Virus record (IMG/VR): IMGVR_UViG_3300038701_001470
Span: 1-64,000 of that record
Strand: one strand, 5' to 3'
Length of the DNA stretch: 64,000 nt
DNA from: a virus
Shown here: positions 3,201 to 28,415 of the stretch, in pieces
Position numbering within the stretch: position 1 is the first letter of the stretch
Layout: each line of letters starts with the position of its first letter
Position numbers and translations under genes: made by a program
Notes under the pieces: model-generated
Databases searched by the model: none
What the model saw: the letters and a program-made list of their open reading frames with translations, nothing else
Told to the model about the DNA's origin: nothing

Positions 3201-3925
3201 GCGCAAAAAAGACAGCAGCGAAGAGGAAGGCCCCGGCGAAGAAAGCCGCGGCGACTCGGAAGCGTGCAGTCAAAAAGAAGGCCGCGAAGAAGCAGGCTAC
3301 CGCGAAGAAGGTGACCACGAAAAAGGTTGCCCGGGCGGTGAAGAAAGTCGCGACGAAGAAAGCAGCGGAGGCCGGATTCGCGACGAGTCAGGAAACGCTT
3401 TCTCAGGCAATGGGGATCTCGCGATCAACCCTGAACCGATTGAAGCGAATCAAAGGTTGTCCCACTGCGACGGCAGACGGCCGATACAAGATTTCCGACT
3501 TCGCCGACTTCTACCAGAAGCACAAAAAAGCGGATCCGGCAGACGAAGCGGAAGCCGCGGCGCGGAAAGAACTGCGTGAACTCGATCTCGAGAAGAAGAG
3601 ACTCGAAGTTGCTGAGCGCCGGATGGAGTATGATCTCAAGCGAGGTTTGCTCATGGACGCTGAGGAAGTGAAGCAGGTTCTCGGCGAGGCTTTCGGAGGC
3701 ATCACTCAGACGATGCGCGATTCCGAAACGGCGATCGCTCCACAGGTAGCCGGCTGCGAATACATCGAAGCTCTTGAGATTGTCCGGAACTCAAATCGTG
3801 AGGCGCTGAGTCGTTTCTCCCTCGGCGATTGGGCAAAAAAAAAAGCATTCTGGCGGAACATTTTTGCCGAATTGCAAGACCTCCAGACGACATTCAACCC
3901 TGGGAGTGGGCAGAACGTCACGTAA
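3197..3925 (+). CDS. terS: Terminase small subunit with histone-H1-like tail
   Basis: Starts at GTG (GTGA overlap with the previous stop). Residues 1-58 are almost entirely Lys, Ala, Arg and Thr in AKK/KKA repeats, like a histone H1 C-terminal tail. Residues about 60-110 form a helix-turn-helix (SQETLSQAMGISRSTLNRLK) followed by a wing-like segment. A long charged coiled-coil helix follows (about 115-160), as in phage small terminases that oligomerise. Position directly before the large terminase supports the assignment. It would recognise the packaging site. The basic tail is unusual and could add non-specific DNA binding. Confidence 0.75.
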   Translation: MSAKKTAAKRKAPAKKAAATRKRAVKKKAAKKQATAKKVTTKKVARAVKKVATKKAAEAGFATSQETLSQAMGISRSTLNRLKRIKGCPTATADGRYKISDFADFYQKHKKADPADEAEAAARKELRELDLEKKRLEVAERRMEYDLKRGLLMDAEEVKQVLGEAFGGITQTMRDSETAIAPQVAGCEYIEALEIVRNSNREALSRFSLGDWAKKKAFWRNIFAELQDLQTTFNPGSGQNVT

Positions 3926-5664
3926 TTGTTCCCCGGCGAAACACTGGCGAGAATTGGGACTCGAAGCAGGCCCCGTTCGTTCGTCAGATCATGGAGGATT
4001 TCAAGAATCCGAACATCAACGAGATTACGTGCATGTGTTCGGCTCAGTCTGCGAAGACGGAAACGATCATGGCGCTGGTTGCCTGGGTCATCGATCAAGA
4101 TCCCGGCCCGATCCTTTGGGTGACGACGAACATGCAGGAAGCGAGAAAGTTCGCTCGAGCTCGTCTCATGCCTCTTCTCGAAAAATGCGGCCCGATCATC
4201 GACAAGATGCCAGCCGGCCGATACGACAAAACGACGACGGCCATTTATTTCCCGGGCGCTCCGCTTTTCATCGTCGGTGCCGACTCCCCGGCCGCATTGC
4301 AGTCGACTCCGTTCCGATACATCTTTCTCGATGAGGTCAGATCGTGGAAGGAAGGCGCTCTGGAAATGGTTTCCAAGCGTGTTCGATCGTTCCCTCACAG
4401 CTACAAGAAGGTCGTAGTCTCAACGCCGGCGAAACAGGGCGATCATTTGCACCGTGCGTTCATGGCCGGGACTCAGAACGAGTGGCACGTGAAGTGCCCG
4501 GAGTGCGGGAACGAACACGCTCTCGAATGGGGAGACGAAAAGACACCTGGGGGCGTGAAATGGGACAGAACGGAAGTCACAAAAGTGAACGGCGAGTATG
4601 ATTACGAGGAATTGCTGAAAACGATTCGATACGAGTGCTGGAATTGCGATTACTCGTGGAGAGACACGCCGCGGGAGAGGAAGCAGCTCGCGAAACTCGG
4701 GCGATGGGTGCCTCAGAACGACAGGGCCCCGAAGAATGTGACGAGTTACACTTGGAATGCCGTCCTTCCATGGTGGGCAAGTCTGAAAATGCAGGTTCGA
4801 GAAGGTCTGGACGCATTCAGAGCACTCAGTTTCGGCGCTTGGCAACCTCTCCGCGATCATCTGACGGAAACGCGGGGGCAAATTTGGTCTGATGAGTACC
4901 GGTACCGCCAGAACAACGCGATCCTCGAGGACAGAACCACTGATTACTCTCCGACCGATCACGAGGCCATGTCGAAAGCCCTGGGACGATGGGGAACGAT
5001 TCAGATCCCGCTGAAAGTCGGTGATTTCAACGAAGTGAAGCGGATCATGAGCATCGACGTCCAAGGAAAGGGCGGTCGCCACTACTACACCGTGATTCGA
5101 GCGCACGAAATGGGCGGTCGGAGTCGATTACTCCACAATGAGAAGATTTGGAACGCCGATGAGATTCGCGGCCTGCAGCGAGACTGGAATGTGAACCCTG
5201 ACGACGTAATTTTCGACGCCGCGCACTACTCGGATGAGATTTACCAGCTCATTCTCGCCTCGGGCGGGAAGTGGAAGGCTTTCAGGGGAGACAAGCGAGA
5301 GCATTTCAAGGTCGTGGGCTCGGACGGTAAGACGTACGAGCAGATGTGGACGAAAACCTACGCGGATCCAGCAATCGGAACTCACATGGAGGGACGGGTC
5401 GGAAAAATCCCGCTTTGGCTCTTCTCGAAGCCGACGACGATCGAGCGTCTTCAAAATCTCATCAGTGGAGTCATGCCTGGGTGGGAGATGCACGAAGACG
5501 CCGACGATGACTACCGAACTCAGGTGAATTCCTACTATCTCCACGAGTTTTTCGATACGAAGGGAAATCGATGCCTCGAATGGCGGTTCCGCGGGGATAA
5601 CCACTACGCCGACTGCGAAAGGATGCAGATCGCGGCCCAAGACATCACGGGGCTGATTAACTGA
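3829..5664 (+). CDS. terL: Terminase large subunit (GpA family)
   Basis: A 611-residue packaging ATPase-nuclease. It has the N-terminal ARPPDDIQPWEWAE signature of lambda GpA-like terminases, a degenerate Walker A (SAQSAKTE, about residue 68), a Walker B (YIFLDEVRSW), and a zinc-binding pair (CPECGN and CWNCDY). The C-terminal nuclease has SIDVQGKGG and a final DNHYADCE. No ATG lies near the expected start, so TTG at 3829 is chosen. That start is 97 bases inside terS, next to a run of ten A (3835-3844) that could permit slippage between the two frames. Confidence 0.95.
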   Translation: MGKKKSILAEHFCRIARPPDDIQPWEWAERHVIVPRRNTGENWDSKQAPFVRQIMEDFKNPNINEITCMCSAQSAKTETIMALVAWVIDQDPGPILWVTTNMQEARKFARARLMPLLEKCGPIIDKMPAGRYDKTTTAIYFPGAPLFIVGADSPAALQSTPFRYIFLDEVRSWKEGALEMVSKRVRSFPHSYKKVVVSTPAKQGDHLHRAFMAGTQNEWHVKCPECGNEHALEWGDEKTPGGVKWDRTEVTKVNGEYDYEELLKTIRYECWNCDYSWRDTPRERKQLAKLGRWVPQNDRAPKNVTSYTWNAVLPWWASLKMQVREGLDAFRALSFGAWQPLRDHLTETRGQIWSDEYRYRQNNAILEDRTTDYSPTDHEAMSKALGRWGTIQIPLKVGDFNEVKRIMSIDVQGKGGRHYYTVIRAHEMGGRSRLLHNEKIWNADEIRGLQRDWNVNPDDVIFDAAHYSDEIYQLILASGGKWKAFRGDKREHFKVVGSDGKTYEQMWTKTYADPAIGTHMEGRVGKIPLWLFSKPTTIERLQNLISGVMPGWEMHEDADDDYRTQVNSYYLHEFFDTKGNRCLEWRFRGDNHYADCERMQIAAQDITGLIN

Positions 5665-17723: not shown

Positions 17724-18562
17724 AGGGAATCACGTATCAGCAGAATGGGGCCGGTCTCTCAGGGCACGGATTGAAGGATCTCTTCTCTTCGGTAGCCATG
17801 GCCGAAATCTTCGGGGCGGAAGCCGTCTACGATGAGAGCTGGAATAACCAGAGCATCATCCCGGCCGAACACGCTGAAATGCTTCTGGCTTCTCAGGATG
17901 ACTTCAAGCGAGCTGCGATCATTCGACGAAGAAAGAAGTTCTGGACTGGAATCCCGTTCAAAGAGCTCGCGGCCGCCCGGGAAATCTTCGACGGGATGGA
18001 GGATGGAGGATTGCTCACTCTCACCAACGTATTCCGGATCCAGCCATACCAGGTCGATAATTGGGAGAGAAAGGGCCTGATCCCGGAGGGAAGTTACTCC
18101 CGTGTCATCTCGAAGCTGTCTCAGCTCTATTGGGGAGAAGAGGAGCCCTACCGTGTCGACGGCATCGCGATTCATGTTCGCCGCGGTGAAGTCGGAACTC
18201 CCCGGCATCGTCATCACGAGTGGATGGGAGGCGGCATCTGGAACGTCGACTTCTACAATGGCATGGTGAAAGATCTCAGGGCTGAATTTCCCGAAAAGGA
18301 AATCCGAGTTTTTTCACAGAAGAGAAATTCTCGCGATCTTTTGAGACTCGGAGAAGGGGCCGAATTGAGATTGGGAGATGACACGCAGCTTCAACTACAC
18401 TTTCGTGAGCTCGTTACGGCTGAGATTCTGATTCCGGCAAATTCAGGATTCTCGACGTGGGCGGCATACCTGAACACAGGAACCGTTCGACTGTATCAGG
18501 CTCGTGAAGTGAAGCACATCGAACATACTGAATATCCCCCACACTTCACCGTGATTTCATGA
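17720..18562 (+). CDS. Fucosyltransferase-like glycosyltransferase (GT-B)
   Basis: A 280-residue protein. The motif IAIHVRRGEVG (about residues 153-163) matches the HxRRGD-type GDP-fucose-binding loop of GT11/GT23-like transferases. The later text PANSGFSTWAAYL (about 239-251) matches the SxxSxFSxWAA motif in the same fold. It probably transfers fucose or a related sugar. It overlaps both neighbours by ATGA and lies between a small head gene and the portal, an odd place for an enzyme, suggesting virion glycosylation or a recently inserted cargo gene. Confidence 0.7.
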   Translation: MKGITYQQNGAGLSGHGLKDLFSSVAMAEIFGAEAVYDESWNNQSIIPAEHAEMLLASQDDFKRAAIIRRRKKFWTGIPFKELAAAREIFDGMEDGGLLTLTNVFRIQPYQVDNWERKGLIPEGSYSRVISKLSQLYWGEEEPYRVDGIAIHVRRGEVGTPRHRHHEWMGGGIWNVDFYNGMVKDLRAEFPEKEIRVFSQKRNSRDLLRLGEGAELRLGDDTQLQLHFRELVTAEILIPANSGFSTWAAYLNTGTVRLYQAREVKHIEHTEYPPHFTVIS

Positions 18563-20259
18563 GTCAGAAACCCGATACCAGCCTAAATTTCCTCGAACGT
18601 GTCGTCGGCACGGTAGCTCCCGGATGGGCGCTCAGTCACGCTATCGGAAGGGCTCAGCTGAATCACTTCGAGTCCCGCGGTGCGAACGACGGTAGGCTGC
18701 GAGGCGATTCGGGCGGGATGAACAAGAACGGATCCCCGGAGAGTCATCGCGCCAACAAGGATCGAATCAAGACGATGTGGGATGCCCGGGACATGGAGGA
18801 TAACTCTCCTCTCATCGCCGGCATTCTCGAGCGAACCACGATGTACACCGTGGGAAACCTATCCTACAAATCGAAGACGGGAGACGGCGCGGTGGATGAC
18901 CACTACGAGAGGTTTTTCGGCGAGTGGGCAAAGAACTGCGATGTCACTGGCCGGTTCTCTCTTCGGGAAATGATCTCGATCGCCTTTCGTTCGATGCTTC
19001 GCGATGGTGACTACGGAATCGCTTTCGTCGATGTCGGGAAAGGCATCAAGCTGCAGGGCATCGAAGCAGACCGGATCGGTTCGCCGCTCGATAGCCGTCA
19101 GGATGAAAAGCATGTCGGCGGTCTCGATCTCGACGACTTCGGACAGGTCATCAACTATCAGATCTTCAAGCGTTCACGGACGAACCAGTACACGAAGGAT
19201 CGGGATTGCTCTCCGAATCACTTCATCCACTTGAACAAAGTTACTCGCTCCGACCGGTATCGTTGCAAGTCATGGCTCGCCGCGGGACTCCCTCATGCTC
19301 GTGATTTGCATGAGATTTTCGGCTTCGAGAAGCAGGGCGCGAAGTTCGCTTCGATGTGGGCTGCGTTCATCCGGGCGAAAGATCACACTGGCCGTGGAGG
19401 ATGGGACACTGAGGACAAGAAGGGCCTCAAGATCAAGGAAGCCGTTCCCGGCCTGATCACTGAACTCGAGACAGACCAGAGCATCGAGTTTGCTCCCGGT
19501 GTTCAGCGTCCGTCAGGTGCCTTCATGAATCTCGTCGAATCCGTGATTCGCAATATCGCTATCGGCCTGAACCTCCCGTATGGCTTCGTCTACAACATGG
19601 CGGCATTCGGCGGTGTTACCGCTCGCCTTGAGACTCAGCAGGCACAGCGAGTGTTCGAGACTTGGCAGCGCCTCCTGATCGACAAGGTTCTCGATCGAAT
19701 CCGCGATCAGGTCATCGGATGGGGAATCGCTACCCGTCAGATCCCTGCTCATCCAAACTGGAGAAAAGGCGACTGGAGATTCGGCGCGGCCATCACAGCC
19801 GACGTTCAGCATCAGACGTCTTCTGACATCATGCTCATCGACAAAGGACTCAAGACCCGCTCTCAGTGGTGTCAGGAGCATGGCCTCGACTTCGAGGAAG
19901 TTCAGGAAGAGTGCGCTCGCGAGATGAACATCATGCGTGACGTTTCCGCTCGGAACGAGATGCCGGTTGAATTGCTTCACGAGGGTAAGCCGAATGCGAC
20001 TGAGATGCTGGCTGCTATGAGTGCTCGTGATGATCCCCCTCCAGAGCCAAAAGGGATGATTGAGGAGTATGGGGCTCAAGGAATGAAACCACTTCTCGAC
20101 GTTCTCGAACAGGTCGGAGATGGCTCCATGGACAGGGAAAGCGCAATCGCTACCCTCATGGATCTCTACGGTATCGAGTATCACAAAGCGTCGATGATGG
20201 TTCCTCAAGAACCTCGTCTCACGCAGGGTTCAGTCGTGGGGCCTCCACTGATCGGGTAA
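18559..20259 (+). CDS. Portal protein (lambda family)
   Basis: A 566-residue portal. The N terminus (ALSHAIGRAQLNHFESRGAND) and the region RANKDRIKTMWDARDMEDNSPLI match lambda gpB-type portals. A conserved GGVTARLETQQAQR segment lies about residues 353-366, and GLNLPYGFVYNM about 338-349 is the usual core. Twelve copies would form the DNA channel at one vertex. The C-terminal 80 residues are Met/Glu/Pro-rich and likely flexible. The stop is followed at once by TTGACA of the next gene. Confidence 0.9.
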   Translation: MSQKPDTSLNFLERVVGTVAPGWALSHAIGRAQLNHFESRGANDGRLRGDSGGMNKNGSPESHRANKDRIKTMWDARDMEDNSPLIAGILERTTMYTVGNLSYKSKTGDGAVDDHYERFFGEWAKNCDVTGRFSLREMISIAFRSMLRDGDYGIAFVDVGKGIKLQGIEADRIGSPLDSRQDEKHVGGLDLDDFGQVINYQIFKRSRTNQYTKDRDCSPNHFIHLNKVTRSDRYRCKSWLAAGLPHARDLHEIFGFEKQGAKFASMWAAFIRAKDHTGRGGWDTEDKKGLKIKEAVPGLITELETDQSIEFAPGVQRPSGAFMNLVESVIRNIAIGLNLPYGFVYNMAAFGGVTARLETQQAQRVFETWQRLLIDKVLDRIRDQVIGWGIATRQIPAHPNWRKGDWRFGAAITADVQHQTSSDIMLIDKGLKTRSQWCQEHGLDFEEVQEECAREMNIMRDVSARNEMPVELLHEGKPNATEMLAAMSARDDPPPEPKGMIEEYGAQGMKPLLDVLEQVGDGSMDRESAIATLMDLYGIEYHKASMMVPQEPRLTQGSVVGPPLIG

Positions 20260-20265
20260 TTGACA
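20260..20265 (+). promoter_or_regulatory. TTGACA start-associated signal
   Basis: It follows the portal stop codon by two bases or fewer and begins 21 bases before the ATG at 20281. A TTG start at 20260 is formally possible but would use the signal itself as coding. Confidence 0.55.
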
Positions 20266-20280
20266 GAGGAAACATCACTG

Positions 20281-22743
20281 ATGAAGCCCGAGAAAAAACG
20301 TCTCAAGAAAATCCGCCGTGAAGCCAATGCAGGGGAATCGACCTCTCAGAAGGTGAAGAATTACAGCGTTGCCGGTGCTTCCGGTGCAGCTGGACTTGGC
20401 GCTGCCGTCGCGGGAGTTGCCGCGGCCCGGGCTGCAAAGAAGGTCGGAAAGACTGCCGAGTCAGTTGGTGAAGAGGCGAAGAAAACGCTCAAGAAGGTGA
20501 ACAGTGTAGCCGGCGCACCGGGGCGAGCTGCGAACAAGGCGAAGAGTGTGGGTAAGGGGCTCATGAAAAAGATCGCCAAGACCGGTAAGCGAATCGTTCG
20601 TGCCGAGTCTCAGCTTCCACTGAACCACTTCAAGGCGTCCGAAGTTCGGAAGGGCGTGATGGTTGTCGACGGCAATGCGATCAGCGTTCCAAAGCTGGAA
20701 CTGCTTCTCAAGAAAAAGAAGGTCGAAAAGGTTCCCCTTAAAAAAGTGAAGGGTATCGGCCGTCAGAAGGGGTATTCCGCAGACCGGTTCGAGGGCGCTT
20801 CCAACGCTCTCGACAAGCCAGGCATCATCGGAACGGATGGAACTCTCATCGATGGAAGGCATCGCTCTCGCGGTCGGAAAGCCCGTGGAGACAAGGATGG
20901 CCTCTATCGCCGTGCCTCGAAGAAGGATCTCAAAGCTGCGATGATCACGCTCGCGAGAAAGTATCGTGATGTGAACGAGTTCAATCTCGCGCCCGGGGTT
21001 TACCATGGCGATCGCGCCGTGAAGAAAGCCCCTATGTTTCGCCACGAATACGTCGCGGTTGTTCCAGAGGATGAAAAAGCCCTCCCGAAGAATGTTCGTC
21101 GCCAGCTCGTGAAAGTGGGGCCAAACGGTGAGAAGGCTCTCGTGTCCGGTGGATACAATCGCCGTGGTCGACTTCGCGCCAAGATCGGCGATCGAACCGA
21201 TGTGAAGGCAATTCGCAAATCGATCGCCAAGGGGAAGGGCCCTGATCATGTTGCTACCGAGGGCGGAAATGCCGCGGCCATCAAGACTGCCGAGGTGTCG
21301 AAGCGGTTCGGATCACGGAAGTATCCCGGCCTGATCGACAATGCTCGAGGAAAAGGGAAGAACTCGAACTCCTATGCTCGAACCGTTCTGAAAGAGAATG
21401 GAGTCGTCAGGGATCCCAAGAAATCAAATCCCGGATCGAATCTCTACTTCGCCAAGAAGGATGAACCCAACCGTCAGGAGAAAATCGCCACGGCCATCAG
21501 AAAGGTTGCACCCACAGTTCGCGGGGCGGCTTCCGGAGCTCTCGTCGGAGCGGCGGTAGGAAACGTGCCAGGTGCTATCGCCGGTGGAACGGCCGGGGCG
21601 CTCGCTCAGAACAAAATGGCGAAAGTTGCACGCAAACAAGAGCGTGAAAGAAAGCCTCTCAGTGCCATGGCTACCGTGGCAGCGGTTCCCGCGGGAGCGG
21701 CTGCAATCGCAGCTGGCATCAAAAACCGAAAGAAAATCATGAAGAAAGCGAAACCATTTCTCAAGAAATTGAAGCACTTTGAATCGAAACTCGATGACTG
21801 TCTCGAGTTCTCGAAAAAGGATCAGTTCAAGCGAGGGCCTGACACTGATCGTCCGGGCGAATTCCTCAATACTGTGAAGGTCATCGCCGGCGCTGAAAAG
21901 CCTTTCGTCTCCAATCCGAATCACGTGAAAGGCTCCGTTGATCCTTCAACGGCTTCCGCTCTGATTCCCTACGACGGGCCAATCGGTGCCAGTTCCCAGG
22001 CATGGAAGGGTGCGTATCGTACCGCCAAGAAAGGGAACCAGATCGCTCAAAGGACTGGCCGCGTAGCTCGTGATGTCGGCGATGTGGTGACCGGCAAGGG
22101 TCGGAGAAAGGATTCCGCGGGACGTCCGAAAAAGCGTGAGTGGGAGAAGCCATACTTCCGGAACACCGTCGCGGCGGGAGCGGGAGCGGCGGGACTCATG
22201 CTTGGCGGAAAGGCCCTTCGTGAGAATCCTGCCATCCTCTCGAAAGTTTCCGATACCACCGGCCCGCTGGCTGAGAGTCTTCTCAAGAAGACAAAGAACA
22301 TCGGCGCCTCATACTTCGAGGAAGATTTGGATCTTCGCCCGGGCATGATCGAGTTCACCGAAAGCGTTTCCGTTCGAGACAACAAGGGTCGCCAGGTGTT
22401 TCGCGTGGAAGATGCTCGAGGAAACTCCGCTCGCATCCATCAGGGCGATAAGCCCAAGCGAGTTCGCCGTAAGAAGAAGTGGCATGAGAAGGCTCAGAAC
22501 GAGCGGAAACTCTGGAAGGGCGCGGCTCTCGGAGCTGCCGTTGCTGGTGTCGCAGCCGGGGCAAAGGGCAAAACCATTGCCAAAGGAGCGAAGAAAGTCG
22601 TGAAGCGTGTCGCAGCGAAAGCCGGATCAACCAAGGTGGGTTCAGCTCTCGGTAAGGAAGTGGCAAAGCGCGGGGCCGCGAAGAAGATCAATCGGCAGGC
22701 GAAGAAGATCATGAAATCTCGCGCTGGCATCGGAGCCAACTAA
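20281..22743 (+). CDS. Basic glycine-zipper protein, candidate internal/ejected virion protein
   Basis: An 820-residue, very Lys/Ala/Gly-rich protein. At least five Ala/Gly segments that could span or insert in membranes (near residues 30-50, 415-440, 460-482, 630-650 and 745-765) alternate with Lys-rich stretches. Residues about 115-220 hold a ParB-like piece (FKASEVRKG, then GTLIDGRHRSRGRKARG). It carries SKLDDCLEF near residue 502 and LRPGMIEF near residue 685, motifs shared with the next two proteins. In position it replaces the usual minor capsid gene. A DNA-bound, ejected pore-forming protein is my inference. Confidence 0.6.
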   Translation: MKPEKKRLKKIRREANAGESTSQKVKNYSVAGASGAAGLGAAVAGVAAARAAKKVGKTAESVGEEAKKTLKKVNSVAGAPGRAANKAKSVGKGLMKKIAKTGKRIVRAESQLPLNHFKASEVRKGVMVVDGNAISVPKLELLLKKKKVEKVPLKKVKGIGRQKGYSADRFEGASNALDKPGIIGTDGTLIDGRHRSRGRKARGDKDGLYRRASKKDLKAAMITLARKYRDVNEFNLAPGVYHGDRAVKKAPMFRHEYVAVVPEDEKALPKNVRRQLVKVGPNGEKALVSGGYNRRGRLRAKIGDRTDVKAIRKSIAKGKGPDHVATEGGNAAAIKTAEVSKRFGSRKYPGLIDNARGKGKNSNSYARTVLKENGVVRDPKKSNPGSNLYFAKKDEPNRQEKIATAIRKVAPTVRGAASGALVGAAVGNVPGAIAGGTAGALAQNKMAKVARKQERERKPLSAMATVAAVPAGAAAIAAGIKNRKKIMKKAKPFLKKLKHFESKLDDCLEFSKKDQFKRGPDTDRPGEFLNTVKVIAGAEKPFVSNPNHVKGSVDPSTASALIPYDGPIGASSQAWKGAYRTAKKGNQIAQRTGRVARDVGDVVTGKGRRKDSAGRPKKREWEKPYFRNTVAAGAGAAGLMLGGKALRENPAILSKVSDTTGPLAESLLKKTKNIGASYFEEDLDLRPGMIEFTESVSVRDNKGRQVFRVEDARGNSARIHQGDKPKRVRRKKKWHEKAQNERKLWKGAALGAAVAGVAAGAKGKTIAKGAKKVVKRVAAKAGSTKVGSALGKEVAKRGAAKKINRQAKKIMKSRAGIGAN

Positions 22744-22744
22744 G

Positions 22745-22750
22745 TTGACA
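22745..22750 (+). promoter_or_regulatory. TTGACA start-associated signal
   Basis: Starts one base after the previous TAA and 20 bases before the ATG at 22765. Confidence 0.55.
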
Positions 22751-22764
22751 GATCCTTTTTGATT

Positions 22765-23148
22765 ATGGAAAACGAACTTATCGCACTCGAAGCCAAGCTT
22801 GATTCGCACCTCTTCGAGTCAACTCCCGAAGACAAGAAGAAGCGGCTCAAAAAAGCCGGTGCGATCGCAGCTGGCGCGGGTAGCGTTGCTCTCGCCGGGG
22901 CTGCACTCGCGGGTGGACGTCGGATCAAGCGTGCTGGCGGCTTCAAGAAGGTTGTCAAAAAGGGTGCCGAGGCGGTTGCAGATCGCGTCAAAAAGCAGCC
23001 TGACAACACTTGGAAGGCAGCGGGAGAGCAAAAGCTCAAGAAGAAAATCGCCAAGAAATATGGCGTTGAGATGAGCGCCGTCCCAGGCCAGCTCATTGAG
23101 CTTTCTTCAAAGCTTGATTCCGTTCTCGAAACTGCAGACTCCGAGTAA
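22765..23148 (+). CDS. Small basic glycine-zipper protein with KLD motifs
   Basis: A 127-residue protein starting at ATG 22765 (an in-frame TTG at 22759 is less likely given the TTGACA spacing). Residues about 8-19 read EAKLDSHLFES and the C terminus reads SSKLDSVLETAD, so the KLD motif occurs twice. Between them lies a hydrophobic Ala/Gly segment (AIAAGAGSVALAGAALAGG) flanked by Lys clusters. It shares composition and motif with the proteins on both sides, indicating a family built from the same modules. Likely a virion-internal or membrane-active component. Confidence 0.55.
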   Translation: MENELIALEAKLDSHLFESTPEDKKKRLKKAGAIAAGAGSVALAGAALAGGRRIKRAGGFKKVVKKGAEAVADRVKKQPDNTWKAAGEQKLKKKIAKKYGVEMSAVPGQLIELSSKLDSVLETADSE

Positions 23149-23156
23149 TCGAGCGC

Positions 23157-23990
23157 ATGATCGAACCTGAAATCACCGAACTGAGCGCGAAGCTTGATGG
23201 GGCTCTCCATGAGTTCGACAAGCTCGATCTCGGATACACCTACGCCGACGAGGATAATGATTTCCCCGTGTGCGGTAGCAATGACAACTACCGGACGAAG
23301 AAGCGGTATCCGACTGCCTACATCAGTCGTGTTTCAGATGATCCGAAGGACTTCCCGGAGACGGGCAAGGCGATCATCGAATACAAGGTGACTGAGAAGA
23401 GAACTCGTTCCTCTTCCAAATCAGGAAAGACAAAGGCACGTCACTCCATGGACATCGAGATTCACTCGATCGAGCCCGTGAAGAAGAACGACAAGACCAA
23501 GACTTCCGATCCGGTTTCCAAGCTGAAAGGATCCGCTGAACCAGTTTCGGAGCTTTCCGACATTCGCCCAGGGATGATTGAGTTCATTTCTCTTCCGGAC
23601 AAAGTAGCCAAGGCTGCAGTGAAGAAAGTTCGGAAAGTCCCGTTGAAGAAGATCGCAGCTATTTCAGGTGCTACCGCGGCGGGAACGATCGCTGGAGGCG
23701 CTATCATCCGGAGACGGAAGAAAAAGAAGGATCAGGCCGTTGAACTCGAGTCCCTTCGTCCGGGCATGATTGAGTTCTCGGATCCCCGTCCTCGAAACCC
23801 TCAAGGTCAGTTCGCCGATGTTTCCACTGGCGGTGCAAACCCCCAGGCAATGAAGGCCGCGTATGGTCAGAAGCCGGGAGTCGCCATGGTCGGAGGGCAG
23901 GCCGGAATGGGACAACCTCTCATTCCTCGCAAGAAAGTCGTTCGTTCCGGGATTCAGCCCGTGACAAAAGCGCATCAGTCGGTAGTATAA
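23157..23990 (+). CDS. Basic virion-associated candidate with two RPGMIEF motifs
   Basis: A 277-residue protein. The N terminus reads ELSAKLDGALHEFDKL, the same module as its two upstream neighbours. Residues about 30-110 form a soluble domain with YTADEDND-like acidic text and a Lys-rich strand. RPGMIEF appears near residues 137 and 201, before and after an Ala/Gly/Ile segment (ISGATAAGTIAGGAII) that could be a membrane helix flanked by Arg/Lys. The C terminus is Gly/Gln-rich. Function not known from homology; see the finding on the shared motifs. Confidence 0.55.
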   Translation: MIEPEITELSAKLDGALHEFDKLDLGYTYADEDNDFPVCGSNDNYRTKKRYPTAYISRVSDDPKDFPETGKAIIEYKVTEKRTRSSSKSGKTKARHSMDIEIHSIEPVKKNDKTKTSDPVSKLKGSAEPVSELSDIRPGMIEFISLPDKVAKAAVKKVRKVPLKKIAAISGATAAGTIAGGAIIRRRKKKKDQAVELESLRPGMIEFSDPRPRNPQGQFADVSTGGANPQAMKAAYGQKPGVAMVGGQAGMGQPLIPRKKVVRSGIQPVTKAHQSVV

Positions 23991-23994
23991 ATCG

Positions 23995-24148
23995 GCTCTC
24001 GTAGTGTAACGGCTACCAGGAAGTCGGTGAATGGTTTAGCGGCCCACACTGACGACACGCGGAAAGAGGCGACTGAATCGCGATAGGAAACCTCTTTGCA
24101 CGCTCTTTGAATAAAAGGGAAGTCCCGGTTCGAGTCCGGGCGGGGGCA
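23995..24148 (+). tRNA. tRNA-like element with abnormal core
   Basis: The ends fit a tRNA: GCTCTCG (23995-24001) pairs with CGGGGGC (24141-24147, two G-U pairs), and CCCGG-TTCGAGT-CCGGG (24124-24140) is a perfect T arm, then discriminator A. TAGTGTAACGGCTACC resembles a D arm. The total length of 154 bases is about twice normal. The extra part contains AAAGAGG/CCTCTTT and GCGA/TCGC hairpins. An anticodon-loop-like CTTTGAA (Gln, TTG) precedes the T arm but lacks a proper stem. It may be a disrupted tRNA, a tRNA with an insertion, or a structured RNA that mimics tRNA. Confidence 0.4.
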
Positions 24149-24167
24149 CTATTCATCCCTTCGATGA

Positions 24168-24187: not shown

Positions 24188-25444
24188 ATGAAAAGAGCCA
24201 AGAAGCCTCCCGTATATCACTTTGAAGTTGTAGCCCCTCTCAGCGATGCCGCTGTCGATTCCGAGAACGGAGTCATCAAAGGAGTTTCCATTATCACCTG
24301 TGGCGTTGAAGCCAGAGGGCACGATCTCGAAGTCGACGACACAACCGTTTCTCAGATGTTCCTTTGCGCGAATGGCATGGGGCAAGTTCCGGTGAAGTGG
24401 AACCACAAGAGCGGTGCCGACGCCATCAACGGTTACCTCTCCAACTTCTCTGTCGAGGGGAACAAGCTCAAGGGAGACTGGCATCTCCTCAAGACTCACG
24501 CTCAATACGATCAGGCGATCGAGCTTGCTGAGCGTATGCCGAAAAACTTCGGACTGTCCGCAGCATTCGCCGGACAGGGTGAGAAGAAGGGTGGAAAAAC
24601 CAAAGCGAGGTGCACCGAACTTATTTCGGTCGATCTCGTCGCTAACCCTGCAGCGAATCCCGATGGACTGTTTGAAGCAGTTGACACTTCCGGAGATGGC
24701 ATGGATCAAGAACCCACACTCGCCGATGTCCTCGCAGCTGTTCAGCAGGTGCAGAGCGATCAAGCTGCCATCACTGAGCGTCTCGACGCCGCTGAGCAGT
24801 TCCAGAATGATCTCATTGATCAGTTCGCCGACGAAGGCGAGGGCAATGAGGAAATCGAAGACGGAGTCGAATATGAGTATATCGACGAAGCTGGAAATCC
24901 TGTTCAGGTGGGAACCGCAGTCAATGGCGGTGCACCGAACGACATCGCAAGTGCCCCAGGCACCCTTACCGGAACTCCCGGCGCTCCCGCTGGCGCTCCT
25001 GCCATGGCCGGTGCAGCCGCTACTTCCGAGCTCGCCGCTCTTCGCCAAACGGTGACTTACCTCGCCGAGAAGGACATCGCCGAGACTGAGGCAGCTGAAA
25101 AGGCTGAGCGTGAACACGCTTTCGCAGTCGTTGATCAGAAGATCGACAAACTCGTTGAGTTCAATACGAAGCTCAAAGCCGAGAACGAGGCTCTGGTCAC
25201 TGCCCTGCAGACTGCCGGTGCTTCCGCAGCTCATCTTTCCGCACCGGCTCGCGGGCCGGTTACTCATCTTTCAGCCCACGACGGCGAGCCAGCCGACGAG
25301 TGGGAAGAGCTCGTTCACGAGTTCCAGTCTCAGGACAAGGATATGCCTCCAACCAAGGCGATTCAGCTTGCGATTCAGCAGCGTCCGGATCTCTACCAGA
25401 CGCACCTTGGCCGAATCGGTGTCGTGAACCAAATGGGCTCGTAA
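24188..25444 (+). CDS. Prohead protease with scaffold-like C terminus
   Basis: A 418-residue protein. The N-terminal domain (about 1-175) has DSENGVIKGVSIITCGVEARG, a VKWNHK pair, and the C-terminal marker FGLSAAFAG then LISVDLVANPAANPDGLFE, as in phage head maturation proteases that cut scaffold and capsid precursors. From about 180 the sequence is acidic, then Ala/Gly/Pro-rich, then a long coiled coil (EKDIAETEAAEKAEREHAF, KLVEFNTKLKAENEALV), typical of scaffolds fused to the protease. The order protease-scaffold, cement, major capsid fits assembly. The Ser-His catalytic pair is plausible but not individually certain. Confidence 0.8.
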   Translation: MKRAKKPPVYHFEVVAPLSDAAVDSENGVIKGVSIITCGVEARGHDLEVDDTTVSQMFLCANGMGQVPVKWNHKSGADAINGYLSNFSVEGNKLKGDWHLLKTHAQYDQAIELAERMPKNFGLSAAFAGQGEKKGGKTKARCTELISVDLVANPAANPDGLFEAVDTSGDGMDQEPTLADVLAAVQQVQSDQAAITERLDAAEQFQNDLIDQFADEGEGNEEIEDGVEYEYIDEAGNPVQVGTAVNGGAPNDIASAPGTLTGTPGAPAGAPAMAGAAATSELAALRQTVTYLAEKDIAETEAAEKAEREHAFAVVDQKIDKLVEFNTKLKAENEALVTALQTAGASAAHLSAPARGPVTHLSAHDGEPADEWEELVHEFQSQDKDMPPTKAIQLAIQQRPDLYQTHLGRIGVVNQMGS

Positions 25445-25509: not shown

Positions 25510-25857
25510 ATGAATAAAAATTGCGTCATTTCCCTTCCTATCGCCGAGGATACCAAGATCGCCGCGTTCACTCGGGTCAAGCTCGATGAGAACGGCCAGG
25601 TAGTCGTGGCAGACGCCGGCGACAAGGCCATCGGCCACACCGAACTCGATGTGGATGGGTCAAATGGCAGACCGGTTTGCGATGTGTATCGCACCAATGG
25701 GGGAGGATCGCACTACGCGATTGCTTCCGAAGCATTCACTCCCGGACAGGAGTTCGAGGGTGCCGATGACGGTGAGATTGCCGTTCTGGATGCCGGAACA
25801 GCTGAGGGCCAAGCTCTCGAAGCTGGAGACGGAACCATCCGAGTTCTCTACTACTAA
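25510..25857 (+). CDS. Head decoration (cement) protein, paralog A
   Basis: A 115-residue acidic beta protein starting MNKNCVISLPIAEDT. It contains AFTRVKLDENGQVVVADAGDKAIGHTE, the DUF2190-like barrel pattern, then RPVCDVYRTNGGGSHYAIASEAF. The gene at 28017 encodes a clear paralog (MNKSFVISLPLAPG, RPVIDVYRSNSGGLHFATASEPL). It lies directly upstream of the major capsid gene, where cement proteins usually are. The leader is pyrimidine-rich, with TTGAAC at 22 bases before the ATG. Confidence 0.75.
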   Translation: MNKNCVISLPIAEDTKIAAFTRVKLDENGQVVVADAGDKAIGHTELDVDGSNGRPVCDVYRTNGGGSHYAIASEAFTPGQEFEGADDGEIAVLDAGTAEGQALEAGDGTIRVLYY

Positions 25858-25921: not shown

Positions 25922-26881
25922 ATGTATGCTAACTCCGCAGCCGTAAGCCGGCCCGAAATCTCCACCTTTCTTGAGGAGGCGACCAAGGCAGAAGACTTCT
26001 ACATCGCGCAGAAGATCATGCCCGTCTTCACCTCGAAATCGAGGGCTGGACGATACCCGCGTCTCAAAATCGAGAACGGTGAACTCATGAAAGCCCAGTC
26101 GACCCTTCGTGGCCCTTCTGGTACCTACAATGAGGTCGCACGTAAGTTCGATTGGGAGACCTACGACTGTGAAGATCGCGGTCTCGAAGAGCGCATCGAC
26201 GATGTGAATGCTCGTGAGATGCAGAACTTCTTCGACACCGAAGTTGTGACTGCCAAGCTGGTTCGCCGGTCGGTTGTTCTCGACTACGAGAAGCGTGTCG
26301 CCGATCAGATCATGAATCCTGATTCGTTCAATGCAGTCGCATCCCACGTTGGATACACTGAGGCGAATCTCGCTACGATCGACTTTGCCCGGGATCTTCT
26401 CGATGCAGTTGAGCGTCTTGAGCAGCGTGCTCAAATGGCGAACACCATGATTCTCACCCGTGCGGTGTTCAACCTGCTTCGTCGCTCCAAGCTTCTGCAG
26501 ACCTACCTCTTCGGTAATCTCGGAGCTGGAACCGAGCATCGTCTGATCAACCCAACGGACATCGGAAATGCTTTCGGCATCAAAGACGTCCGGATCGCGG
26601 CTGCGACCTACGACCGCGCTCAAAAGGGCAAGCCGAAAGAACTCGTTCCGGTTTGGAAGAACGATTACATCTTCCTTGGCAATGTTCAGGGCGGTGACTT
26701 CGAGAACGGCGGTATCGGTCGGACGATCGTTTGGGACTCCGATTCTCCCGGTGGACTCTTTGCGACCGAAACCTATCGCGACGAGAAGCGCCGCGGTAAC
26801 ATGGTTCGAGTCCGCATGAACACCGACGAGAAGATCGTCGACGAGACTGCCGGTGAGCTGATCACCACTCAGTTCGAGTAG
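25922..26881 (+). CDS. Major capsid protein
   Basis: A 319-residue protein of a size and place expected for the lambda gpE-like capsid protein. It starts MYANSAAVSRPEISTFLEEA and has FDWETYDCEDRGLEERID, an arginine/acid-rich N-terminal arm, then ANTMILTRAVFNLLRRS in the A domain, and ends with VRVRMNTDEKIVDETAGELI. There is no obvious prohead cleavage site at the N terminus, fitting a separate scaffold in the preceding protease fusion. A strong terminator follows, which would let it be expressed at a high level. Confidence 0.85.
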   Translation: MYANSAAVSRPEISTFLEEATKAEDFYIAQKIMPVFTSKSRAGRYPRLKIENGELMKAQSTLRGPSGTYNEVARKFDWETYDCEDRGLEERIDDVNAREMQNFFDTEVVTAKLVRRSVVLDYEKRVADQIMNPDSFNAVASHVGYTEANLATIDFARDLLDAVERLEQRAQMANTMILTRAVFNLLRRSKLLQTYLFGNLGAGTEHRLINPTDIGNAFGIKDVRIAAATYDRAQKGKPKELVPVWKNDYIFLGNVQGGDFENGGIGRTIVWDSDSPGGLFATETYRDEKRRGNMVRVRMNTDEKIVDETAGELITTQFE

Positions 26882-28016: not shown

Positions 28017-28415
28017 ATGAACAAAAGCTTCGTCATCTCATTGCCCCTCGCTCCCGGTGCCGTCATTCCGGCATACGCTCGAGTGAAATTCAGCCAGGAG
28101 GGTATCGAGATTGCCGACGAGAACGACCGTTCGATCGGACACTGCGAACAGGATTGCAATTACTCAGTGCGTCCCGTCATTGACGTCTACCGCTCGAACT
28201 CAGGAGGATTGCATTTCGCTACGGCTTCCGAACCTCTCGTTGCCGGGGAAGGTTTTGTGGGTGCCGACGACGGCATGATTCAGGCAGCTGATGAGCATCC
28301 CGAGGGGATCGTGATTCAAGATGCGGAAGAAGGTGCCACGATAATGGTTGCCTATTACTCTGCTTCCGGTTTGACTGTAACTGATGATTCAGGCAGTGAA
28401 CCAGAAGCCCCATGA
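28017..28415 (+). CDS. Head decoration (cement) protein, paralog B
   Basis: A 132-residue paralog of the protein at 25510: shared FVISLPLAPG, ARVKFSQEGIEIADENDRSIGH, IDVYRSNSGGLHFATASEPL and GADDGMI segments, with an extra acidic C terminus. Duplicate decoration genes flanking the capsid and joining genes suggest two distinct surface positions or an exchanged epitope. It overlaps the following glycosyltransferase gene by ATGA. Confidence 0.7.
   Translation: MNKSFVISLPLAPGAVIPAYARVKFSQEGIEIADENDRSIGHCEQDCNYSVRPVIDVYRSNSGGLHFATASEPLVAGEGFVGADDGMIQAADEHPEGIVIQDAEEGATIMVAYYSASGLTVTDDSGSEPEAP

Follow-up and report, generated by a model that had tools for sequence, protein, structure and literature searches.

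The window analysed here, 64,000 nucleotides that make up most of a viral record of 67,577 bases (IMG/VR record IMGVR_UViG_3300038701_001470), contains three adjoining forward-strand genes, here called P1, P2 and P3, whose products share short repeated peptide words. The cassette lies where a preliminary description had placed it, between the gene for a lambda-family portal protein (18559–20259, forward strand; PF05136, E=7.5e-38) and that for a head maturation protease recognised by its fold (24188–25444, forward strand). P1 (20281–22743) is a Lys-rich protein of 820 residues if read from its ATG (827 from a TTG at 20260), P2 (22765–23148) has 127 residues and P3 (23157–23990) has 277; the positions 20281, 22765 and 23157 under which the three were originally described are the ATG starts. 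The inventory of shared features given in that description holds: RPGMIEF occurs three times in two proteins (once in P1, twice in P3), xKLDxxLx four times in three proteins (at 21787 in P1, 22795 and about 23110 in P2, and 23190 in P3), and Lys-rich Ala/Gly hydrophobic segments number five in P1, one in P2 and one, perhaps two, in P3. The net charges are +113, +9 and +15, respectively. A degenerate DNA pattern for RPGMIEF matches three times on the forward strand and never on the reverse strand of the whole record, and the three copies differ at synonymous positions only, so it is the peptide rather than the DNA that has been kept. An unsupervised motif finder returned these three copies as the top motif of P1–P3, with an objective of 20.1 versus at most −0.6 in three shuffles.

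The repeated words, hereafter tags, are distributed along the three forward-strand genes as follows. In P1, two minor candidate sites suggested by sequence, ...PLNHF-KAS (20623–20631) and ...DVNEF-NLAPGVYHG (20974–20982), precede the single KLD-type tag (ESKLDDCLEFS, 21787–21810) and RPGMIEF copy 1 (22336–22356), which lies upstream of a conserved C-terminal module (22369–22578; DxRGxSAR...RRxxxWHEK plus an Ala/Gly segment, aligned over 18 sequences) that recurs in 57 loci in viral contigs. The second minor site is directly upstream of a mobile domain (20986–21381), delimited by alignment and by hmmsearch over the fetched loci, that is common to P1 of locus L015 and P3 of locus L018 (39–41% identity; L numbers denote individual loci) and has invariant HEY and NSNSYAR; it matched no Pfam family and, by sequence, no solved structure. 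In P2, a basic Ala/Gly segment is flanked by KLD-type tags at the N terminus (22795–22818) and the C terminus (ELSSKLDSVLE, 23110–23130, start approximate). P3 combines an N-terminal KLD-type tag (KLDGALHEF, 23190–23216), directly followed by a fifth KLD (FDKLDLG), with a beta domain, RPGMIEF copies 2 (23565–23585) and 3 (23757–23777) and an RPRN..GQF module, SDP-RPRNPQGQF following copy 3 directly. P2 and P3, otherwise different, have the N-terminal KLD tag in common. PHROGs and Pfam returned nothing solid for the three proteins, P1 of the window having no Pfam domain above the cut-off; weak Gly-zipper matches were found in P1 and in one relative.

With the portal as query, seven related viral contigs were found; portal and protease alignments were then used as queries, drawing on the best 80 of 393 and the best 80 of 457 confirmed matches, respectively. 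Both genes were present in 112 loci, with 1.2–10 kb between them in 73, and collapsing these 73 left 39 non-redundant loci, namely the window and 38 relatives. In the remaining 39 of the 112, less than 1.2 kb separates portal from protease, and the cassette therefore appears to be present in only part of the family. Among named phages the best portal matches reach only ~25% identity, and in the one named relative examined, phage Lily, portal and protease adjoin. Two matches fall in metagenome-assembled genomes labelled Phycisphaerae and Akkermansia, labels that hint only weakly at a host. P3 as query found no match in viral contigs. In some of these phages the tagged set extends beyond the portal–protease interval, since L056 (5246–7021) and L142 (324–5550) encode more Lys-rich tagged proteins upstream of the portal.

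Exact RPGMIEF was rejected as a family marker: its DNA pattern occurs in 12 viral contigs, most of the others being short or unrelated frames, and among the 12 only L005 reads RPGMIEF in a homologous context (followed by DPRPRN). The unit conserved across relatives is a looser core, [L]-x-[E/Q/D/H]-F-[S/A], preceded by either of two forms, “RPG/TPA...” or the helix “LSAKLDxxL”. The relatives' versions, which include TPAxxVIDF, SSVEF, LTPGMVAF, LSAILDSYDF, LSARIDAHLHQF and similar words, close in almost every case with hydrophobic-[E/D/H/Q]-F, and the residue that follows is mostly S, A or D. The motifs do recur in relatives as this core; conservation does not extend to RPGMIEF and KLD as such, KLD in the window corresponding to TPA/TAA...F in relatives at one junction.

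The pattern [LIVMFYT][EDHQ]F[SAD] was framed on eight loci, which also supplied the residue set after Phe, and counted on the other 31 against within-protein shuffles. These 31 held-out loci contain it 41 times versus 12.2 expected (maximum 22 in 200 shuffles), with the reservation that hydrophobic-[EDHQ]-F contexts had been inspected across every locus beforehand. Control patterns in the same loci gave 15 versus 14.2 with K/R before F, 8 versus 11.5 with Tyr for Phe, 40 versus 35.8 with Leu, 3 versus 5.8 with Trp and 12 versus 12.2 when reversed. A later scan added seven P1-type proteins, which held 6 versus 1.8 expected, a count reached by 8 of 500 shuffles. Across 329 non-redundant [EQDH]F contexts, the residue most favoured is Leu at the third position before Phe (3.1-fold), followed by H/I/T two before, S directly after and E/D at the next position. 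With this Leu included, L-x-[EQDH]-F shows 5.3-fold enrichment over the 31 loci (70 versus 13.2), the Leu having been picked on the same loci; in the cassettes, L-x-E without F stays near expectation (1.05- to 1.21-fold). In the protease domain L-x-[EQDH]-F reaches 2.8-fold, which we ascribe to homologous positions because the [KRNG]F control is higher still (4.9-fold). An upstream [FLM]S[AST] preceding the sites was set aside, being enriched only threefold. Given 10 of the 39 loci, the motif finder found nothing clearly above shuffles in six (L015, L016, L022, L031, L101 and L024).

Counts by protein class, made over all 39 loci with S or A after Phe and partly dependent on one another through homologous sequences, show enrichment in the cassette (53 versus 11.6) and, with qualifications taken up below, in the scaffold-like half of the protease (15 versus 3.1) and residues 1–60 of the portal (6 versus 0.8). 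The protease domain (1 versus 1.8), the portal after residue 60 (7 versus 6.1) and the capsid protein (2 versus 2.0) are near expectation. Other genes gave 40 versus 21.6 on the forward strand and 23 versus 19.8 on the reverse; L056, L057 and L142, with their Lys-rich tagged proteins upstream of the portal, account for part of the forward excess. This distribution bears on the idea that the motifs are neither targeting nor cleavage elements, being instead structural joints of ejection-conduit proteins built from basic Ala/Gly segments. The Lys-flanked segments in all three proteins and the Gly-zipper matches speak for such joints; the core is also found in the scaffold half of the protease and beside soluble-looking modules, and we consider this account improbable.

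The core also has a preferred place, ahead of conserved modules. Upstream of the DxxGRxxKREWEK module of P1, the junction is ESKLDDCLEFS in the window and a TPA or TAA form in L014, L018 and L020; upstream of the C-terminal WDVRDPRGRSARV module of P1, the window has RPGMIEF and four relatives TPA...F. Since the KLD and RPG/TPA forms swap at an aligned P1 junction, they are interchangeable. In an alignment of the P3 domain (12 sequences, the non-window members being 17–39% identical to that of the window), at least 90% of the sequences retain the tag Phe and little else is kept N-terminally. For the RPR[ND]xxG[QR][FY] module there are 35 distinct contexts: in eight, no more than five residues separate it from the protein start, in three more (L101, L103 and L104) a Met is found two or three residues upstream, and among the 24 fused contexts 18 have a Phe within four residues upstream, where chance would place one in ~9% of cases. 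Proteins that start where others have EF are as expected if EF marks a cut. The 689-residue protein of L057 (4141–6210) has three near-identical tags (LAARIENLIEFA, LAARIENLIEFS and LSARIENLNELS) between modules that look HNH-like (one) and HExxH-like (two), Pfam supporting the HNH alone (E=0.037). Pfam matches in relatives comprise InPase, LRAT-like and DUF6321 domains. For DUF6321 (five loci), a core site lies inside the domain in none of the five and within 25 residues of its left side in three and its right side in four; for four other domain types, core sites seldom flank the domain within 25 residues (1 of 14 domains), or its position was not found. A resemblance of some modules to ART, ParB and zincin domains, judged from short motifs, was discarded, as Pfam supports none of the three.

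These observations also have to be weighed against another possibility, that the motifs are docking tags only, which bind scaffold, capsid or each other and are never cut. The KLD form is indeed modelled as a helix (in P3, residues 5–19, ending at EF and followed by a loop and a beta hairpin; mean predicted local distance difference test score (pLDDT) 68, ~52 in the helix), N-terminal KLD-type tags defined by a fixed expression occur in 19 of 39 loci versus a shuffled mean of 2.2, and the N-terminal targeting signal of DarB of phage P1 is described as sufficient for packaging. Docking leaves unexplained why modules begin just after the Phe and homologues start there, and why a few residues around the Phe, not the helix, are constant; we regard it as unlikely.

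The neighbouring protease offers a candidate enzyme for cleavage. Sequence profiles gave weak head-protease matches (E ~1e-3 to 1e-2). An AlphaFold2 model built from 21 sequences (pLDDT 82) placed T4 gp21 first in Foldseek (E 5.5e-5), and superposition on gp21 (5jbl) with VIA-align gave Z 13.1 and 3.3 Å over 144 residues, herpesvirus proteases coming next at Z 5–6; as modelled, the protease has the gp21 fold. Two residues, H73 and S124, do not vary among the 21 sequences. The C-terminal half is scaffold-like, with coiled coil; protease–scaffold fusions are also a feature of herpesviruses. In relatives without the cassette (L072, L083, L163 and others), TDFSELRKN is conserved close to where the scaffold half ends.

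We posit, with a probability of roughly 0.55, that P1, P2 and P3 reside inside the head, are probably ejected together with the DNA, and carry targeting helices and sites for the phage's own protease. The KLD-type helix (L..LxAkLDxxL), at ends and junctions, would bind scaffold or core and so bring the proteins into the procapsid, and the core that closes both tag types would be the site at which the gp21-like protease acts. Before DNA packaging, the protease would (i) remove the targeting helices and (ii) cut multi-module proteins into basic, membrane-active or enzymatic pieces. P2 and P3, with the order tag helix, site, body, would follow the logic of T4 IPIII, whose N-terminal peptide is described as bringing it to the core and then being removed; P1 and its long relatives would be cut in trans into several parts. 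The bond may lie after Phe or, as in T4, before it, and the spacing fits both, as L-x-[E/Q] then F or as hydrophobic-[E/Q]-F then S/A; we lean towards cleavage after Phe, since this is the residue that stays constant, although the data do not decide. The earlier suggestion of packaging or capsid-binding tags, or protease sites, thus survives with partial support, from the enrichment of the core in cassettes and scaffold halves, with no such excess in the protease domain, the capsid protein or the portal beyond its N terminus, and from the fold of the protease.

Several observations weigh against processing as just outlined. The scaffold-half count is weaker evidence than its number, because the [KR]F control is enriched there too (11 versus 2.4); of 71 distinct proteases, just 35 carry the core there, and the window's own lacks it, reading HL-SA instead. 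The core-like portal N terminus (...QLNHFESRG), a single homologous position, was rejected as independent evidence; lambda-family portals often read AYDAA there. By the fixed expression, 20 of the 39 loci have no N-terminal KLD-type tag, several cassettes (e.g., L129, L031, L094 and L024) have no core, and the RPRN modules of L026, L099, L057, L016, L017 and L126 have no Phe within the four upstream residues. Between near orthologs (36 pairs), the site Phe was kept in 10 of 16 cases and other Phe in 148 of 235, that is, no better; core sites may come and go, or may matter less than we suppose. The same result would suit a functionless origin of the repeats in recent duplication or biased composition. 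We think this highly doubtful, given the synonymous differences among the RPGMIEF copies, the excess in held-out loci over composition-matched shuffles and the sharing of one core by different upstream forms.

If the cleavage-site interpretation is extended to the relatives, the tagged genes could constitute a polyprotein system in which strings of effector and membrane modules enter the procapsid by means of repeated excisable tags and are separated there, in trans, by the head maturation protease at a Phe-based site, new effectors being added by inserting a tagged module. We advance this only tentatively; L057 would be its clearest case. The closest parallels suggest that the preliminary description, which knew of no such family, was right about the exact words and not about the kind. 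T4 internal proteins with capsid-targeting sequences, in the accounts consulted, are likewise basic, with a short N-terminal tag, and in T4 too a protease of the same fold adjoins head genes; their short hydrophobic-x-Glu motif, gp21 being described as cutting after L/I-X-E, may have a counterpart in the core. Unlike in T4, here each protein may carry several tags, internal and C-terminal as well, Phe is the constant residue, the protease is fused to a scaffold-like half, and P1–P3 have no informative PHROG match. Polyvalent proteins, as presented in parts of Iyer et al. 2017 (PMC5512222), are multi-domain proteins of portal–terminase phages, thought to be packaged and injected, for which processing into units has been proposed; InPase is listed there as phage-type. 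P1–P3 resemble them in being encoded beside portal and terminase head genes, and differ in that splitting of polyvalent proteins is assigned to a domain of their own (MPTase or assemblin-like), whereas here there would be a separate protease and repeated sites.

Heads of the SPN3US/phiKZ type, in the portions of the reports consulted, present many substrates with one short motif, cleaved ejection proteins and a protease that cuts off its own C-terminal propeptide, all parallels to what is proposed here; SPN3US gp245 is described as cutting after a three-residue motif with Ser preferred next. These giants use another residue and mostly one N-terminal propeptide per protein, in contrast to tags between modules in a genome of ~67 kb. 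The gp245 motif is reportedly named AXE. DarB and DdrB of phage P1 are described as large head-packaged proteins with an N-terminal targeting signal, one of them processed before packaging, and, unlike for the window, the sections consulted report no repeated tag. A literature search returned no paper with the string RPGMIEF and none with both “prohead protease” and “cleaves after phenylalanine”. Should our interpretation be true, one short tag would predict, for these uncultured phages, the proteins packed and injected as well as their points of cleavage, exposing a set of delivered effectors; the protease would be a Phe-directed member of the gp21 family, and the tag a natural example of a movable element that sends proteins into phage heads.

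Other features of the window complete the locus. The terminase large subunit (3829–5661) has a clear family match, and the major capsid protein is encoded on the forward strand at 25922–26881 (phrog_1005, E=2.4e-36). Between P3 and the protease, 23995–24149 is a tRNA-like stretch: its acceptor ends are plausible, its T-arm (GGTTCGAGTCC) is canonical, and its middle contains ~80 extra bases; ARAGORN reports no tRNA there by default and does so only with a 30% threshold and introns allowed, Rfam gives nothing for it, and it is perhaps an interrupted or decayed tRNA. On either side of the capsid gene, short proteins encoded at 25510–25857, whose product has a weak head-scaffold PHROG match, and at 28017–28415 start similarly (MNKxxVISLP) and are likely paralogous head proteins.

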